Assembly: GCA_027064525.1 (NCBI GenBank) | Contig: JAMOPJ010000008.1 | Span: 62,001 to 126,000, forward strand | Length of the DNA: 64,000 bases | Direction of reading: 5' to 3' | From: Archaeoglobaceae archaeon | Lineage (GTDB): Archaea; Halobacteriota; Archaeoglobi; Archaeoglobales; Archaeoglobaceae | Shown: positions 54,504 to 62,487 of the stretch, in pieces | Numbering within the stretch: the stretch's first letter is position 1 | Layout: each line of letters begins with the position of its first letter | Notes under the pieces: model-generated | The model's input: the letters and a program-made list of their open reading frames with translations, nothing else | The model's database searches: none | Told to the model about the DNA's origin: nothing | Program-made: the position numbers and the translations under genes

Positions 54504-55427
54504 ATGAAAGTTAGCGTAATAGTCTGCACATACTCACCAAGAATGTTTAGTCACTTTGTGGAATGCATCGAAAGTTTGCTCCGTCAAACATACAAAGATG
54601 TGGAGATAATATGCATAGTGGATGGTAACAAAGAATATTACCGAATGATCAAAGAAAAAAAAGGAGATTTGTTCAGAGAATATGAAATAAAATTATATTT
54701 AAACGATAGAAATTTAGGTTTACTTGAAAGTCGTAATAGGGGTGTGAAGCTGTCGAGTGGTGATATCGTAGCATTTATAGACGATGACGCAATAGCTGAA
54801 AAGAATTGGATCGAAGAACTCGTTAAGATGTATAAAATGGGAGCCATCGCAGCCGGTGGGAAGCTCGTGCCGTTATGGATTGCAAAAAAACCCAGATGGT
54901 TCCCTGAAGAGTTTTACTGGTTAATAGGTGCAACACATCTTGGATTTCCGGAAGAGGTTACTGAAGTTAGAAATACATTTGGATCAAATTTAAGTTTTAG
55001 AAGGGACGTATTCCTTGAATTGGGTGGTTTTAACACGGAGATGGGTGGCATAAAGGGTAAGAAGATGTTGCAAGGTGGTGAAACAGAGCTTTGCGAGAGG
55101 ATGAGAAGAAGGTATGGCAAGGGGGTTATGTATAATCCGAATGCCATTGTATATCATAAAATATTTGAAAGAAGAATCAAAATTGACTTCCTTGTAAAAA
55201 GAGCTTTCTGGCAAGGTTACTCAAAAGCGGTGATGAAAAAACTTGTGGGTGGAATTGATGTAGAAACCAGTTTCCTTAAATATCTGCTTATTGATAGAAC
55301 TTCAGATAGACTGAAAAGTATTGTAAAAGGTTCAACAGATAATTTACCAAAATTGATGTTTATATGGTTATTGACTTTTTTTGTAGGTGTTGGTTATATC
55401 TATGGTAAAATTGTTACACAAGATTAA
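54504..55427 (+). CDS. Family 2 glycosyltransferase with a C-terminal membrane helix
   Basis: A GT-A fold enzyme of 307 residues. KVSVIVCTYS and the IEIICIVDGN segment begin the nucleotide-binding fold; IVAFIDDDAIAEKNWIEEL carries the DxD metal site. The NTFGSNLSFRRDVFLELGGF and GGETELCERM blocks follow the GT2 consensus. A single C-terminal hydrophobic helix (KLMFIWLLTFFVGVGYIYGKI) would anchor it. Codon use is AT-richer than the housekeeping genes upstream. It is the first gene of the glycan locus. Confidence 0.88.
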   Translation: MKVSVIVCTYSPRMFSHFVECIESLLRQTYKDVEIICIVDGNKEYYRMIKEKKGDLFREYEIKLYLNDRNLGLLESRNRGVKLSSGDIVAFIDDDAIAEKNWIEELVKMYKMGAIAAGGKLVPLWIAKKPRWFPEEFYWLIGATHLGFPEEVTEVRNTFGSNLSFRRDVFLELGGFNTEMGGIKGKKMLQGGETELCERMRRRYGKGVMYNPNAIVYHKIFERRIKIDFLVKRAFWQGYSKAVMKKLVGGIDVETSFLKYLLIDRTSDRLKSIVKGSTDNLPKLMFIWLLTFFVGVGYIYGKIVTQD

Positions 55428-55465: not shown

Positions 55466-56734
55466 GTGAACATATCGATTGTAGGATCTGGCTACGTTGG
55501 ACTTGTTACTGGCATCGGTTTTGCAGAGTTAGGGAACAATGTTATTTTTGTAGATATTGATAAAAATAAGCTAGCTTACATAAATTCTGGAAAACCCCCA
55601 ATATTTGAGCCCGGACTTGAAGAGCTAATGCAAAAAAATAAAGGCAGATACTACGGAACAGAAAACTACACCGAAGCTATTCTGAATTCGCGGGTTACAT
55701 TTATATGTGTTGGAACTCCGTCAAATCGGGATGGCTCAATTAACTTGGACTATATTATATCGGCATCAAAAAAGATAGGTAAAGCTCTAAAAGTAAAGGA
55801 TGGGTTTCATGTGGTGGTTGTTAAAAGCACAGTTACGCCAGGTACTACAGAGGAGGTAGTAAAACCAATTTTAGAAGATTTGTCTGGAAAAAAAGCATTG
55901 ATCGATTTTGGTTTAGCTATGAATCCTGAATTTTTAAGAGAAGGTAGCGCCGTTAAAGATTTTTTCAATCCGGACAGGATAGTTATCGGAGTAAAAGACG
56001 ATAGATCCAAAAAGATAATGGATGAAATTTATTCAAAATTTAGCTGTCCTAAATTATTCGTTGACATTAAAACTGCAGAAATGATAAAATATGCTGCAAA
56101 TGCTTTTTTAGCAACTAAAATCTCATTCGCAAATGAGATAGGTAACATATGTAAGAGGCTTGGAATAGATGTCTATGAAGTATTTAAGGGAGTGGGGCTC
56201 GATCATAGGATAAATCCGTCGTTTTTCAGGGCTGGAATTGGATTCGGTGGTAGCTGTTTTCCAAAGGATATCAGGGCTCTGATAGCAAAGGCAAGAGAGC
56301 TTGGAGAGGACCCTAAGATATTGAAGGCTGTACTTGATGTGAATGAAGAACAACCTCTCAGACTAATACAGCTTCTTAAAAAGCATATTCCCGACTTAAA
56401 AGGTAAAAAAATAGGTGTGCTTGGACTGGCGTTTAAACCAAATACCGATGATGTTAGAGAAAGTAGAGCTATCCCGATAGTTAAAAAGCTCATAGAGGAA
56501 GGAGCGAAAGTGATCGCATATGACCCAATAGCTATCGATAACTTCAAAAGACTGTTCCCACAGATCGAATACGCTTCAAAGGCTGATGAAGTTCTTGATG
56601 CCGATGCTATTTTAATAGTCACAGAGTGGGAAGAATTTGAAAAGTTAGATTATACAGGTAAAATCGTTATTGATGGAAGACGGATTGAAAAGGCGAGGAG
56701 AGAGGCGGAGATTTATGAAGGTATATGCTGGTAG
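55466..56734 (+). CDS. ugd: UDP-glucose 6-dehydrogenase
   Basis: NAD-dependent four-electron dehydrogenase of 422 residues that makes UDP-glucuronate. The Rossmann motif is IVGSGYVGLVTGIGFAELG, the catalytic Cys lies in GIGFGGSCFPKDIRAL, and the second NAD domain has LGLAFKPNTDDVRESRAIP. The GTG at 55466 is used as start. AT-rich codon use. UDP-glucose comes from the next gene, galU, so the pair forms a UDP-GlcA module. Confidence 0.93.
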   Translation: MNISIVGSGYVGLVTGIGFAELGNNVIFVDIDKNKLAYINSGKPPIFEPGLEELMQKNKGRYYGTENYTEAILNSRVTFICVGTPSNRDGSINLDYIISASKKIGKALKVKDGFHVVVVKSTVTPGTTEEVVKPILEDLSGKKALIDFGLAMNPEFLREGSAVKDFFNPDRIVIGVKDDRSKKIMDEIYSKFSCPKLFVDIKTAEMIKYAANAFLATKISFANEIGNICKRLGIDVYEVFKGVGLDHRINPSFFRAGIGFGGSCFPKDIRALIAKARELGEDPKILKAVLDVNEEQPLRLIQLLKKHIPDLKGKKIGVLGLAFKPNTDDVRESRAIPIVKKLIEEGAKVIAYDPIAIDNFKRLFPQIEYASKADEVLDADAILIVTEWEEFEKLDYTGKIVIDGRRIEKARREAEIYEGICW

Positions 56735-56743
56735 GTGGGATGT

Positions 56744-57607
56744 ATGAAGATAACTAAGGCTGTTATTCCCGCAGCTGGATTAGGAACTAGGTTACTTCCT
56801 GCCACTAAGGCTCAACCAAAGGAAATGCTCCCCGTCGTTGACAAACCAGTTCTACATTACGTTGTTGAAGAAGCTGTAAAGTCTGGAATAGAAGACATAC
56901 TGATAATAACTGGGAGGGGTAAGAGGGCTATAGTTGACTACTTCGATGCCTATCCTGAGCTTGAACATCATCTGATGAAGAGTGGTAAGTATGACCTACT
57001 TGAAGAGATCCGTAAAGTGACAGAACTGGCAAACATCTACTATGTCAGACAGAAGAGTCCACGAGGACTTGGAGATGCGCTGCTTTATGCTGAAAGATTC
57101 GTCGGAGATGAACCTTTTGCGGTTTTACTCGGAGATGATATCGTCATATCCAATCCGCCATGCACGAAATCGCTGATAGAGTTGTATGAAGAGTATAAAA
57201 CGAATGTGATTGCGGTTGAAGAGGTCAGTAGGGAGGATGTCAGTAAATACGGTATCATCGATCCCGAGGAAGTTGCGGATGGAATATATAGAGTGAAAGA
57301 TATAATAGAAAAGCCAAAGATCGATGAAGCTCCATCCAATCTGGCCACAATGGGTAGATACGTCTTAACACCAAAAATTTTTGATTATTTAAAGAGAATT
57401 GGTCCAGGTTATGGAGGTGAAATACAGCTTACCGATGCACTTAGGGCAAGCTTAAAAGATTACGAGCTTTACGCCTTTCACTTTAGGGGTAAGAGATACG
57501 ATATTGGGGATAAGTTTGGCTTTATAAAGGCGAACATAGAACTCGCACTTGAAAGGGAAGACATAGGGAAAAAGGTTAGGGATTATTTAAAGAGTCTTAA
57601 GATATGA
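56744..57607 (+). CDS. galU: UTP-glucose-1-phosphate uridylyltransferase
   Basis: A 287-residue nucleotidyltransferase from ATG 56744. AVIPAAGLGTRLLPATKAQPKEMLPVVDKP is the GalU signature; LGDDIVISNP and TMGRYVLTPKIFDYL follow, with GGEIQLTDALRAS. It makes UDP-glucose for ugd (55466). A GTG at 56735 would add three residues. It ends in an ATGA overlap with the permuted glycosyltransferase. Confidence 0.92.
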   Translation: MKITKAVIPAAGLGTRLLPATKAQPKEMLPVVDKPVLHYVVEEAVKSGIEDILIITGRGKRAIVDYFDAYPELEHHLMKSGKYDLLEEIRKVTELANIYYVRQKSPRGLGDALLYAERFVGDEPFAVLLGDDIVISNPPCTKSLIELYEEYKTNVIAVEEVSREDVSKYGIIDPEEVADGIYRVKDIIEKPKIDEAPSNLATMGRYVLTPKIFDYLKRIGPGYGGEIQLTDALRASLKDYELYAFHFRGKRYDIGDKFGFIKANIELALEREDIGKKVRDYLKSLKI

Positions 57608-58695
57608 GGGTCATAGTAGTTCCCAACGGTGTGGACACGAATAGGTTCAGGCCCATCAACAGAGGGAAAGCCATAGATTGGTTTGAGCAGAAATTTTGCG
57701 AGCTTGATGATGATCTAAATATAATTTATGTTGGAAGGTTGTCTGAGGAGAAGGGTATAGTTTACCTGATCGAATCACTTAAGCATCTTGATGAAGGTAA
57801 GTTATTTTTGGCTGGTAAGGGCCCACAGGAGATGTTGCTAAGAAAGATAGCAGAAAAATTCGAAGGTAGAGTGGTATTCCTCGGTAAGGTCAGACACGAC
57901 GATCTACCTTTAATTCACAACGCTATGGATGTTTTCGTTCTACCCTCCATCGGCATGGAAGGTTTTTCAAACTCCATGCTCGAGGCTCTGGCTTGTGGAC
58001 TGCCTGTCGTAGCTACACCGGTTGGAGCTGCGCCCGAAGTTATCAAACCCGAGATGGGAATAATCGTTGAACCAAAAAATGCAAGAGCAATTGCAGATGG
58101 TATTGAAAAGGTCAGAGATCTAAACAGAAAAAGAATTCATAACATCGTCAAGTCTAATTATTCCTTTGAAGTCGTAGCAGATATCGTGTTTGACCTATAC
58201 CATAGAGTGGCAGGATATCCACCCGAAAGCTTATGTTTTGCTTCACTCTTCACCCCACCTTACGAGCTTTCTGGAGTAGGTATGCAGGTCTTTCAACTTT
58301 CTAAAACTTTGATCTCGATGAAGAAATGCAGGGTTGCGATACTGTGTGGTCTGGGTGGTGAAGGTATAATTGACGGTGTAAGATTGATTAAAGTTAGGTG
58401 TGTGGACGGATTACTTTCGAGACCAGTGTACTCGATAGCAGGAATTTTAAAAATTACTAATATTATTAAAAACTATAAATTTGATATTGTAGATGGGAGA
58501 AATTGGGAGGGTGGATTGATATCTGTGATGGCAAAGAGGGGTGGCTGTAAGGCAATAATGAGTTTGAGGGGTGAGGGGGCGGTTGGGGAGTCTCCATGGA
58601 AGAGATCGATCAATAAGTTTATAATGCAAAGAGTGGACTGTGTTACCGCTACGGACTCGAAAACTGCCAAGATGGCGGAGGAGTTATTCACATGA
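57604..58695 (+). CDS. Circularly permuted GT4 glycosyltransferase
   Basis: A 363-residue GT-B enzyme with its two domains in reverse order. The first 200 residues are the C-terminal nucleotide-binding half of a GT4: they start at VIVVPNGVDTNRFRP, normally at mid-protein, and hold IYVGRLSEEKGI and the EGFSNSMLE EX7E motif (Glu119, Glu127). From about residue 208 comes the normal N-terminal half: LCFASLFTPPYELSGVG through RVDCVTATDSKTAKMAEELF, where a GT4 would run on into the VPNGVD segment. Ends join in a natural order if circularised. ATGA overlaps link it to galU and the epimerase, so the frame is intact. Confidence 0.82.
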   Translation: MRVIVVPNGVDTNRFRPINRGKAIDWFEQKFCELDDDLNIIYVGRLSEEKGIVYLIESLKHLDEGKLFLAGKGPQEMLLRKIAEKFEGRVVFLGKVRHDDLPLIHNAMDVFVLPSIGMEGFSNSMLEALACGLPVVATPVGAAPEVIKPEMGIIVEPKNARAIADGIEKVRDLNRKRIHNIVKSNYSFEVVADIVFDLYHRVAGYPPESLCFASLFTPPYELSGVGMQVFQLSKTLISMKKCRVAILCGLGGEGIIDGVRLIKVRCVDGLLSRPVYSIAGILKITNIIKNYKFDIVDGRNWEGGLISVMAKRGGCKAIMSLRGEGAVGESPWKRSINKFIMQRVDCVTATDSKTAKMAEELFT

Positions 58696-59630
58696 AGGTG
58701 TTGGTGACGGGATGCGCAGGTTTTATAGGTTCACATCTCGTGGAGCGACTGCTCGATAAAGGATACGATGCCGTTGGAGTGGACTGCTTTACAGACTATT
58801 ATCCGAGAAAGATAAAGGAAAACAACATCGCCAACTTTGTCGATCAGATAGAGTTCATTGAGAAAGATATACTTGAGATGGATATAGATATTTTGAAGAA
58901 CGTGGACATCGTTTTTCATCTGGCCGCTCAAGCTGGGGTTAGAGCCAGTTGGGGTGAAAACTTTGAGATATACACTAGGAACAATATCCTCACCACTCAA
59001 CGATTGCTCGAAGGTTGTAAGAAGTATGGGGTTCAAAAGTTCGTTTACGCTTCGTCCTCCTCGGTCTACGGGAACGTGAACGAATTGCCGATGAGGGAGG
59101 ACATGTATCCGAGGCCCCACTCTCCTTACGGTGTTACTAAATTGGCTGGAGAGAACCTATGTGAGCTTTACAGAGCGAATTATGGAGTAAAGACAATTTC
59201 TTTAAGATATTTTACTGTATATGGCGAAAGACAGCGTCCGGATATGGCCTTTCATAAGTTCATAAGAGCAATTCTCGACGGTAGGCAGATTGTGGTGTAT
59301 GGGGATGGGAAACAAACGCGTGACTTCACTTACGTAGGGGATATAGTGGATGCAACGATCAAGGCTGCCGAAAGCGATGCAGTCGGTGTGTTTAACATCG
59401 GCGGTGGATCGAGAGTTGAGCTAATTGAAGCTATTAAAGTGATAGAACAAATTATCGGACAGGAAGCAAAGATAAAGTTTGAGGAGACAAAGAAGGGAGA
59501 CGTAAGGGATACTTATGCAGATATTAGCAAGGCCAGAAGAATCCTTGGGTATAAGCCAAAGGTTAGCTTAAAAGATGGATTGAAAAGGGAAGTAGAATGG
59601 ATTGAGGAGAATATAGATCTGCTAGCATGA
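58692..59630 (+). CDS. NAD-dependent UDP-sugar epimerase
   Basis: A 312-residue short-chain dehydrogenase. VTGCAGFIGSHLVERLLDKG is the NAD loop, FVYASSSSVYG the Ser, and YGVTKLAGENLCELY the Tyr-x3-Lys catalytic pair. VYGERQRPDMAFHKFIRAI is typical of UDP-glucuronate 4-epimerase/UDP-galacturonate types as well as UDP-glucose 4-epimerases. Given ugd and galU upstream, UDP-GlcA to UDP-GalA is a reasonable guess. Overlaps both neighbours by 4 bases. Confidence 0.88.
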   Translation: MKVLVTGCAGFIGSHLVERLLDKGYDAVGVDCFTDYYPRKIKENNIANFVDQIEFIEKDILEMDIDILKNVDIVFHLAAQAGVRASWGENFEIYTRNNILTTQRLLEGCKKYGVQKFVYASSSSVYGNVNELPMREDMYPRPHSPYGVTKLAGENLCELYRANYGVKTISLRYFTVYGERQRPDMAFHKFIRAILDGRQIVVYGDGKQTRDFTYVGDIVDATIKAAESDAVGVFNIGGGSRVELIEAIKVIEQIIGQEAKIKFEETKKGDVRDTYADISKARRILGYKPKVSLKDGLKREVEWIEENIDLLA

Positions 59631-60691
59631 GAGTGGGTATACTGGTGAAGGAGTTTCCCCCTGATGTGATAGGCGGAATGGAAATACAAACCATGCGAAT
59701 GGCAGAAAAGCTTAGTAGAAATCATGAAGTGATAGTTTTTACAAAAAAATATAAAAAGAGTGATGACAACAAATCATTAAAGTATACGATTGTTAGAATT
59801 CCGAATATCAGACTCAGTTCTTTCCTGAGCACACTCAGTTTTGTTTTGTTATCTATTATGTATATATTAAAATATAAAAAAAAGATAGATATCCTACAAT
59901 GTATGATGGTTTATCCAAGCGGTTTCGTTGGTCTGATCGTTAATAAGCTGGCTGGTATTCCATACTTTAGTTGGATCAGAGGAGGAGATTGGTATTTTGG
60001 AAGGAAAAATTTTCTCAAAAGGTTGTTGATCCGTAAAGTAATGAAGAATTCGAAATACCCAGTTCTTGTCCAAAGTGAAAGGATTAGGAAAGAGGTTCTA
60101 ATTTTTTGCCCCTCTGCAAATGTAAAGGTTGTTGGAAATGGTGTTAACATTCCCGCCAATCGGCAGAATGGCAAGTATGTATACTTTGTCGGAAACTTAA
60201 TCCCAAGAAAGGGGGTGGAGTTCCTAATAAAAGCATTTTCCGGAATTAACAGTAAGCTTGTAATTGTAGGTGATGGCCCCGAAAGAGATAGGCTATTGAA
60301 GCTATGTGCAAAATATTCTGTTAACTGTGAATTTAAAGGAAAAATCCCACCAGATAAAATCCAAGATGAGTTAAAAAATGCCAAAATTCTTGTGTTACCA
60401 GCAATAGAGGGTGAAGGTTTGCCTAACGTTATTCTTGAAGCTATGGCTTTGGGTATACCTGTCATAGCGACAGACCTAGCGGGAATACCCGATGTCGTGA
60501 AGGATGGCAAGAACGGCTTTATCGTGAAGCCAAGAGACGTTGAAAGTTTAAGAGACAAAATACTATTACTATTAAATAATGAAAAATTATATAAAAAATT
60601 ATCGAGGAATGCGAAAAAGACTGCCTTGAAATTTTCGTGGGAAAATATATTGAACAAATTAGAAGAGGTATATAGAGAATGTGTGGAATAG
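59627..60691 (+). CDS. GT4 glycosyltransferase
   Basis: A 354-residue GT-B enzyme in the normal domain order: [27 protein letters not shown] at the N-terminus, the hinge with [11 protein letters not shown] at about residue 165-175, [20 protein letters not shown], and [31 protein letters not shown] with the EX7E motif. It contrasts with the permuted GT4 two genes upstream. It ends with a 13-base overlap into the asparagine synthase gene. Confidence 0.9.
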
Positions 60692-62487
60692 CGGGAGTTT
60701 ACGGTTTGGAGGATAGGGATCTTATCAAAAGAATGGTTGAAAAAATTAAGCATAGAGGGCCCGATGAAGAAGGATATTATGTTGATGAAAAGGTCTCGAT
60801 AGGTATGTGTAGGCTGAGTATCATCGATCTTGAAGGTGGTTCACAGCCGATTTACAACGAAAACGGAGACATCGTAGTAATTCAAAATGGTGAAATATAC
60901 AATTACAGAGAACTTAGGAGGGAGTTGGAAAGTAAAGGTCATAGATTTTACACAAACTCCGATACCGAGGTAATTGTCCACGCCTATGAAGAGTATGGAT
61001 TAGATTTTCCAAAAAAGTTGAATGGAATGTTTGCAATAGCGATATGGGATGCCAGTGAGAAGAAGCTAATTCTTGTAAGGGATCGTCTTGGAGTTAAACC
61101 CCTATACTACACGATCGTAGATTCAAAGCTAATCTTTGCCTCGGAGATAAAAGCTATACTTGAGTATCCAGTAAAAAGAGTCGTTGATAGGGAAGCTTTG
61201 GCGAAGTATTTTGCGTTGAGGTATGTCCCTGCACCCCTCACAATCTTTAAGGGCATATGGAAACTGGAACCCGGTCACTACATCGTGGTAGATGAAAACG
61301 GTTTTAGGAAGGAAAGGTACTGGGAGCTAACCATCAATGAATTGAATGGTAATGAAAGTTATTTTCAAGAGAAGATCCTAAAGATGTTGAGAGAATCCGT
61401 CAAAAGACGATTAGTTTCGGATGTTCCGCTCGGTGCATTTCTTTCGGGAGGTGTAGATTCTTCAACCGTCGTCGCTTTAATGGCTGAGCTTATGGATGAA
61501 CCCGTGAAGACTTTTTCCGTTGGATTTATAGGCAAAGAATACGATGAAAGCAATTTTGCAAGACTGATAGCTGAAGAGTTTGGAACTGAGCATCATGAAA
61601 TCTTTATTGACATCGACAACATAGATATACTGCCAAAGGTGGTGTGGCATTTTGACGAGCCTATAGCCGATGCGGCAGCGATTCCCACGTATGCACTTTC
61701 GCAACTTGCTCGAAAAAAGGTTAAAGTCGTTTTGACCGGGGAAGGAGGTGACGAAATATTTGCCGGTTATGAGAGATACGTCAACGAACTTAAATATAGG
61801 TGGTTGAGATACTTCGGTTTCCTGTTAAAACCGTTGAGACTTGTCAAAGTTAGTCCCGAAGGTCGAGCTTACAGGTATCTGAAGTTTTTGAGTTCGAAGG
61901 GTAGTTTGGTTGATAGCTATGTAACAAGGCTTGAAGGTTACGACAACGTAAACGTTTTAGCTTACGAAATGGAGAATGGCATTAGAGATATGGTTAAGAG
62001 CACTTTCATCACTAAGGATTACCTGAAAAATATGACCTACTTCGACATCAAATATTGGTTGCCTGATGACCTACTAATGAAGGTTGATAAGATGACCATG
62101 GGCAACGCATTGGAAGCAAGAGAGCCGCTTTTAGATTACGAGCTTGTAGAGTTTGCATTTAACATCCCTTCGAAATACAAGATAAAGAACGGTGTTGAGA
62201 AGTACATATTTAAGAAGGCTGTAAGTAGAATTCTACCAAGGGAAATAGTAAAGAGAAAGAAGCACGGATTCAATGTTCCAATAAAGCAGTGGTTTAGAGA
62301 GTCGAAAGACATAATCGACCAGTATATGTCTAAGGAAATGCTAAAAAAGGTGGACTATATCGATGCTGAGAAGGTCATGAGGATATGGGAGAGACATAGA
62401 AATGGCTGGAATTATGAGTATTTATTATGGAAGGTTTTGAATTACGTTATATGGTGGGAGCAGTATTTGGGGGCAATAAGGGAATGA
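60679..62487 (+). CDS. AsnB-type glutamine-dependent amidotransferase
   Basis: A 602-residue class II glutamine amidotransferase. Cys2 (MCGIAGVYG) is the glutaminase nucleophile; [29 protein letters not shown] belongs to the same domain. The synthetase domain has [18 protein letters not shown] (ATP pyrophosphatase loop) and [14 protein letters not shown]. In glycan clusters such AsnB homologues amidate uronic acids. With ugd and the epimerase present, a uronamide sugar is plausible. A stand-alone asparagine synthetase role is possible. Confidence 0.88.

Follow-up and report, generated by a model that had tools for sequence, protein, structure and literature searches.

Gene content and domain order

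The window analysed here is a stretch of 64,000 nucleotides from an Archaeoglobaceae archaeon, and the genes of interest follow one another on its + strand. The first encodes an AglG-like GT2 enzyme resembling glucosyl-dolichyl phosphate glucuronosyltransferase (54504..55427; NF041394, E 1e-119, 399 bits, below the cut-off of 440); next to it lie genes for an AglM-like UDP-glucose 6-dehydrogenase (55466..56734; NF041297, E 2e-158, below its cut-off, and TIGR03026, above it) and for GalU, a UTP-glucose-1-phosphate uridylyltransferase (56735..57607; TIGR01099, 390 bits, above the cut-off of 326.8). Then come the gene under study (57604..58695), a gene for a nucleotide-sugar epimerase of the GalE-like SDR type, possibly a UDP-glucose/UDP-glucuronate 4-epimerase (58692..59630; TIGR01179, E 2e-51, below the cut-off), a second GT4 glycosyltransferase gene (59627..60691) and a gene for an AsnB-like glutamine amidotransferase (60679..62487; TIGR01536, 551 bits, above the cut-off).

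The gene at 57604..58695 is a complete open reading frame of 363 amino acids with an ATG start, and ATGA overlaps join it on one side to the end of galU (57607) and on the other to the start of the epimerase gene (58692). The first-pass annotation had described these overlaps and had proposed that the product is a GT4 enzyme with swapped halves; both statements hold, the latter at the levels of sequence, profile order, predicted structure and conservation. The usual architecture of GT4 enzymes, with the acceptor half N-terminal and the donor half C-terminal, is a matter of half order that lies outside the sequence-based CAZy definition of the family. In the present protein the donor (nucleotide-sugar) Rossmann half, C-terminal in a normal GT4, occupies residues 1-205 (57604..58218) and is recognised by the Pfam families Glycos_transf_1 (residues 35-175, E 5.7e-33, 114 bits for a cut-off of 26.4) and Glyco_trans_1_4 (residues 39-170). 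The acceptor Rossmann half, normally N-terminal, follows at residues 206-363 (58219..58692) and is recognised by Glyco_transf_4 (residues 223-360, E 7e-10); it is divergent, scoring 39.5 bits for a cut-off of 28.5. The domains are of the GT4 type, Glyco_tran_28 being absent from the Pfam matches of the protein. In matches to NCBIfam and PDB sequences, too, residues 1-203 correspond to the C-terminal half of full-length GT4 enzymes. The EX7E motif (E119-GFSNSML-E127; 57958..57984) lies in the first half, where it had been noticed originally, and a new linker, GYPPE (residues 204-208; 58213..58227), delimited by comparing the junction in seven permuted proteins and in the structural model, connects the ancestral C-terminal helix with the strand that opens the acceptor half. 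The neighbouring GT4 (59627..60691), which served as a control, has the normal Pfam order, N then C, as had been stated.

The annotation had further placed the breakpoint near residue 205, with the C-terminus continuous with the N-terminus, and had suggested splitting the protein there and exchanging the halves. For this purpose 43 normal GT4 proteins of archaeal loci, all with the donor domain second, were made into a GT4 profile of 389 positions. The native permuted protein gives two matches in reversed order, one of 199.7 bits (profile positions 176-385) and then one of 18.7 bits (6-168). After exchange of the halves in silico these become a single match of 236 bits covering positions 6-385. 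The same outcome was obtained for five permuted relatives tested alongside, while the reverse was seen when, as a control, the halves of a normal GT4 were exchanged. Judged from sequence, this is the signature of a circular permutation and not of two unrelated half-proteins, the outcome against which the original proposal had been set. A reading of the locus as two adjacent half-genes can be ruled out, as none of the seven intact copies that we compared has a stop within the frame (a frameshifted eighth copy, from G228, being set apart).

Distribution and conservation of the permuted family

Full-length permuted relatives with a common breakpoint were found in six other archaeal genomes, at 53-71% identity, and in all seven intact proteins the usual GT4 order is reversed. 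In the order to which the window belongs, the gene is present in 3 of 57 genomes, the window's own included; the other two are a Geoglobus MAG (G068/L040, 70% identical) and G028/L011 (61%). A sample of 394 genomes across the phylum added G244/L051, G306/L052 and G226/L053, together with the frameshifted copy (G228/L054), and the class of G226 added G447/L072. The gene is rare within the focused taxonomic groups: it occurs in 2 of 238 genomes of that class, in 1 of 112 of the family of G226 and in 2 of 53 of the order of G244. No record in the plasmid and phage collections covers 80% of the gene, and no full-length relative was found in the plasmid, phage and viral collections. Outside this archaeal phylum the search consisted of a peptide-pattern scan of genome contigs, which detects close relatives only. 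As to the copy in G228 (L054:1277-2391), its frameshift falls about midway through the donor half and may be either an error of a draft assembly or the mark of a decaying gene.

For a single odd gene in a draft genome (the window's assembly has 53 contigs), an assembly artefact would be likely from the outset, as would a rearrangement of recent date in which the parts of a normal GT4 gene were locally reshuffled. The first-pass annotation thought misassembly unlikely because of the overlaps on both sides, and named rearranged reads as the observation that would speak for it. The answer comes from the six intact relatives, which keep the same order, the same breakpoint and conserved gene neighbours in separately assembled genomes, so that neither chance nor assembly error accounts for the arrangement and the probability left to such an artefact is negligible.

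VxPNGV at the start, TATDxxTA at the end, the EX7E motif and the junction are common to the seven intact proteins, and in trees of either half the permuted proteins are monophyletic, with supports of 0.98-1.0. The least saturated pair, G244 and G306, has dN/dS values of about 0.12 (donor half) and about 0.09 (acceptor half), which show strong purifying selection on both halves. The divergence of the acceptor half could be taken to mean that the protein is a relic, GT4-like and non-catalytic or regulatory, that transfers no sugar; but the EX7E motif, the GRLSxEKG region and the glycine and arginine motifs on the acceptor side are invariant among the aligned permuted proteins, and this, added to the low dN/dS of both halves, makes a relic very improbable. 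All these comparisons describe a small conserved archaeal family, located in putative N-glycosylation clusters, and not an isolated oddity.

Predicted fold and known reverse-order enzymes

The alignment supplied to AlphaFold2 combined the permuted relatives with normal acceptor halves, its rows being partly unpaired; only acceptor halves were taken from normal enzymes, because joint addition of normal donor and acceptor halves misplaced the acceptor ones. In its native order the protein was predicted confidently, with a mean pLDDT of 93.7 and a pTM of 0.90; closure of the GT-B fold, which the first-pass annotation had suggested looking for in a predicted structure, is inferred from the pTM and is thus a prediction. 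The order of elements in the model is a rotation of that in the model of the normal neighbour (pTM 0.89). From the junction onwards, strand 209-216 of the permuted protein corresponds to strand 2-6 of the neighbour, helix 225-238 to helix 17-29, strand 243-250 to strand 34-40, strand 259-263 to strand 54-58, helix 272-290 to helix 65-82, strand 295-299 to strand 89-92, helix 300-312 to helix 95-109, strand 316-321 to strand 113-117, helix 331-341 to helix 129-141, strand 346-349 to strand 146-148 and helix 352-362 to helix 151-160. The junction is preceded in the model by a helix (188-203), which is the counterpart of the C-terminal helix of GT4 enzymes. In GT-B enzymes this helix runs back onto the N-terminal domain, a course that would ease the new connection geometrically.

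Foldseek alignments require sequence order. With the permuted model, the best solved GT4 was aligned over about 209 columns only (TM 0.49), whereas the best PDB matches of the normal neighbour are full length (TM 0.83-0.87). There was no GT-B structure of reverse order among the 50 PDB matches listed, and BFVD folds gave partial or distorted matches only. The relation to GT4 enzymes such as PimB', MshA, BshA and PimA is a double one. The Pfam halves, the EX7E motif and the predicted secondary structure of GT-B type are the same, and the GT4 profile is matched at full length once the halves have been exchanged in silico; however, the half order is opposite, and no more than half of any solved GT4 listed can be aligned well when sequence order is kept. 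Its descent makes the protein a GT4, while its architecture departs from the order usual in that family.

Few glycosyltransferase families are as large as GT4, and the order of its two domains has been treated as fixed. Our literature search for naturally permuted enzymes of the GT-B or GT4 type, which was incomplete and leaves priority uncertain, found no description of a permuted GT4. To the statement of the first-pass annotation that few permuted GT-B enzymes are known we can add the single precedent that we found for a reverse-order GT-B, the fusions between Alg13 and Alg14 in Entamoeba histolytica and Dictyostelium discoideum, which have been explained by a gene split and an inverted re-fusion (PMC8993221). 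As in the permuted GT4, the donor-binding half comes first in a GT-B enzyme of N-glycan assembly; but those fusions are MurG/GT28-like, eukaryotic and attributed to a split stage, whereas the present family is archaeal and no split stage was seen. Natural circular permutation with retention of catalytic motifs is also known from GH70 glucansucrases, as compared with GH13, and from MalS (PMC11046441, PMC10223318), but these are barrels of the glycoside-hydrolase type and not GT-B transferases. The Kdo transferases GT99 and GT107 were considered as further permuted enzymes and ruled out, their published folds being modified GT-B folds of normal order.

On balance we think it probable that a natural circular permutation of a GT4 is described here for the first time, in a retaining GT-B enzyme that is competent in catalysis and has its donor half first, and that would have arisen once in archaea and been kept for the assembly of a lipid-linked N-glycan. 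If so, the hinge of a GT-B enzyme can be cut and its ends rejoined with function preserved. A stably inherited permuted GT4 would mean that this hinge and the C-terminal cross-over helix can be rewired, and that a very large enzyme family tolerates reordering of its halves. It would offer a natural template for the engineering of permuted or split transferases and, beside Alg13-Alg14, a second case for studying how GT-B domain order evolves. A practical consequence is that such genes may be wrongly described, or marked as fragments, by tools which presuppose a domain order.

Origin and putative role in N-glycan assembly

The order of the domains, the shared breakpoint, the grouping in one clade, the purifying selection and the confident predicted fold are the observations behind the explanation that we hold with considerable confidence, namely that the gene encodes a working glycosyltransferase, derived from a normal GT4 by a circular permutation that took place once, and acting in an N-glycan pathway. 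The old C-terminus would have been joined to the old N-terminus through the short linker, and the new ends opened in the interdomain hinge, immediately before the VIPNGVD strand. Going by the model and by what is known of the family, the two Rossmann halves would pack as a closed GT-B enzyme like any GT4, the first half (with GRLSxEKG and EX7E) presumably binding the nucleotide sugar and the second the acceptor. The simplest route to such a protein would be a partial deletion in a tandem GT4 pair that joined the C-half of the first gene to the N-half of the second. An arrangement that could give rise to the permuted gene is seen in G254 (L091:898-3231), where two normal GT4 genes lie in one frame with a single stop codon between them, and where the permuted profile spans that stop.

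The existence of such a tandem would also suit a chimera, in which only the inner halves of two different adjacent GT4 genes were retained, the first contributing its donor half and the second the acceptor half fused to it. In G244 a normal GT4 gene does lie directly 3′ of the permuted one, and the two halves have different sister groups in the trees (the donor half groups with L021, the acceptor half with L030 and with L004, the normal neighbour). But these sister groups are weakly supported and the distances saturated, L055 is the top profile match for both halves, and we consider a chimera unlikely; either event would in any case give an enzyme of the same reversed order. Used alone as a query in the window's order, the acceptor half retrieved only permuted copies and no normal-order GT4, and a search for repeats flanking the permuted gene gave only short matches at chance level.

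The usual core across relatives consists of the AglG-like GT2, the permuted GT4 and AsnB, the first and last being conserved partners found at the same position in other loci. An AsnB-like gene follows the permuted GT4 directly or one to two genes on in the relatives examined there, except G244. UDP-glucose dehydrogenase and epimerase genes are adjacent in the members from Archaeoglobales only. Five Archaeoglobaceae have an AglG-like gene and no permuted GT4; in two of them, G027 and G064, the next gene encodes a different glycosyltransferase of normal order. The permuted enzyme therefore seems to occupy a slot that varies between genomes and serves the addition of the next sugar. In genomes with an AglG-like gene and no permuted GT4 this slot holds a divergent glycosyltransferase of normal order (L087:8392-9459 and L088:8514-9563).

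In Haloferax, AglF is a glucose-1-phosphate uridylyltransferase, AglM a UDP-glucose dehydrogenase, and AglG the enzyme that places the second sugar on dolichol phosphate (PMC3871713, PMC8674786). Sugars three and four are added there by AglI and AglE, and of the agl pathway (AglF, AglM, AglG, AglI, AglE, AglB) the window shares AglG-like, AglM-like and uridylyltransferase genes (PMC3871713). The gene context thus points to the permuted GT4 most likely adding a sugar, and most likely the third, to a lipid-linked N-glycan: it would be a cytoplasmic retaining transferase acting on a dolichol-phosphate-linked glycan begun by the adjoining AglG-like GT2. Its donor would probably be UDP-linked and supplied by three enzymes of the operon (GalU, UDP-glucose dehydrogenase and the epimerase), UDP-hexuronate or UDP-hexose being our best guess, and the AsnB-like enzyme may then convert a uronic acid in the glycan to its amide before AglB transfers the glycan to protein. 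To our knowledge, neither a permuted GT4 nor an AsnB-like step has been described for the Haloferax agl pathway.

Since aglB was not recognised within the 20 kb examined around the window's gene, and since exopolysaccharide clusters also contain AsnB-like and other glycosyltransferase genes, a working permuted GT4 could instead serve another surface glycan (S-layer or exopolysaccharide) that does not depend on AglB. This is rather improbable, because the GT2 partner is AglG-like and aglB accompanies the genes of four permuted relatives: it (TIGR04154) adjoins the cluster in G306, G226 and G447, and in G068 it lies beside AglG-UGD genes on another contig. By eye, a pair of small genes, nucleotidyltransferase-like and HEPN-type, was seen between the permuted GT4 and asnB in G447 (L072:2623-3427). 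Also by eye, genes resembling those of nonulosonic acid synthesis (NeuA-, NeuB- and NeuC-like) were found downstream of AsnB in G226 and G028 (L068:3577-6543, L070:610-6320), which suggests that this glycan includes an acidic sugar of nine carbons.
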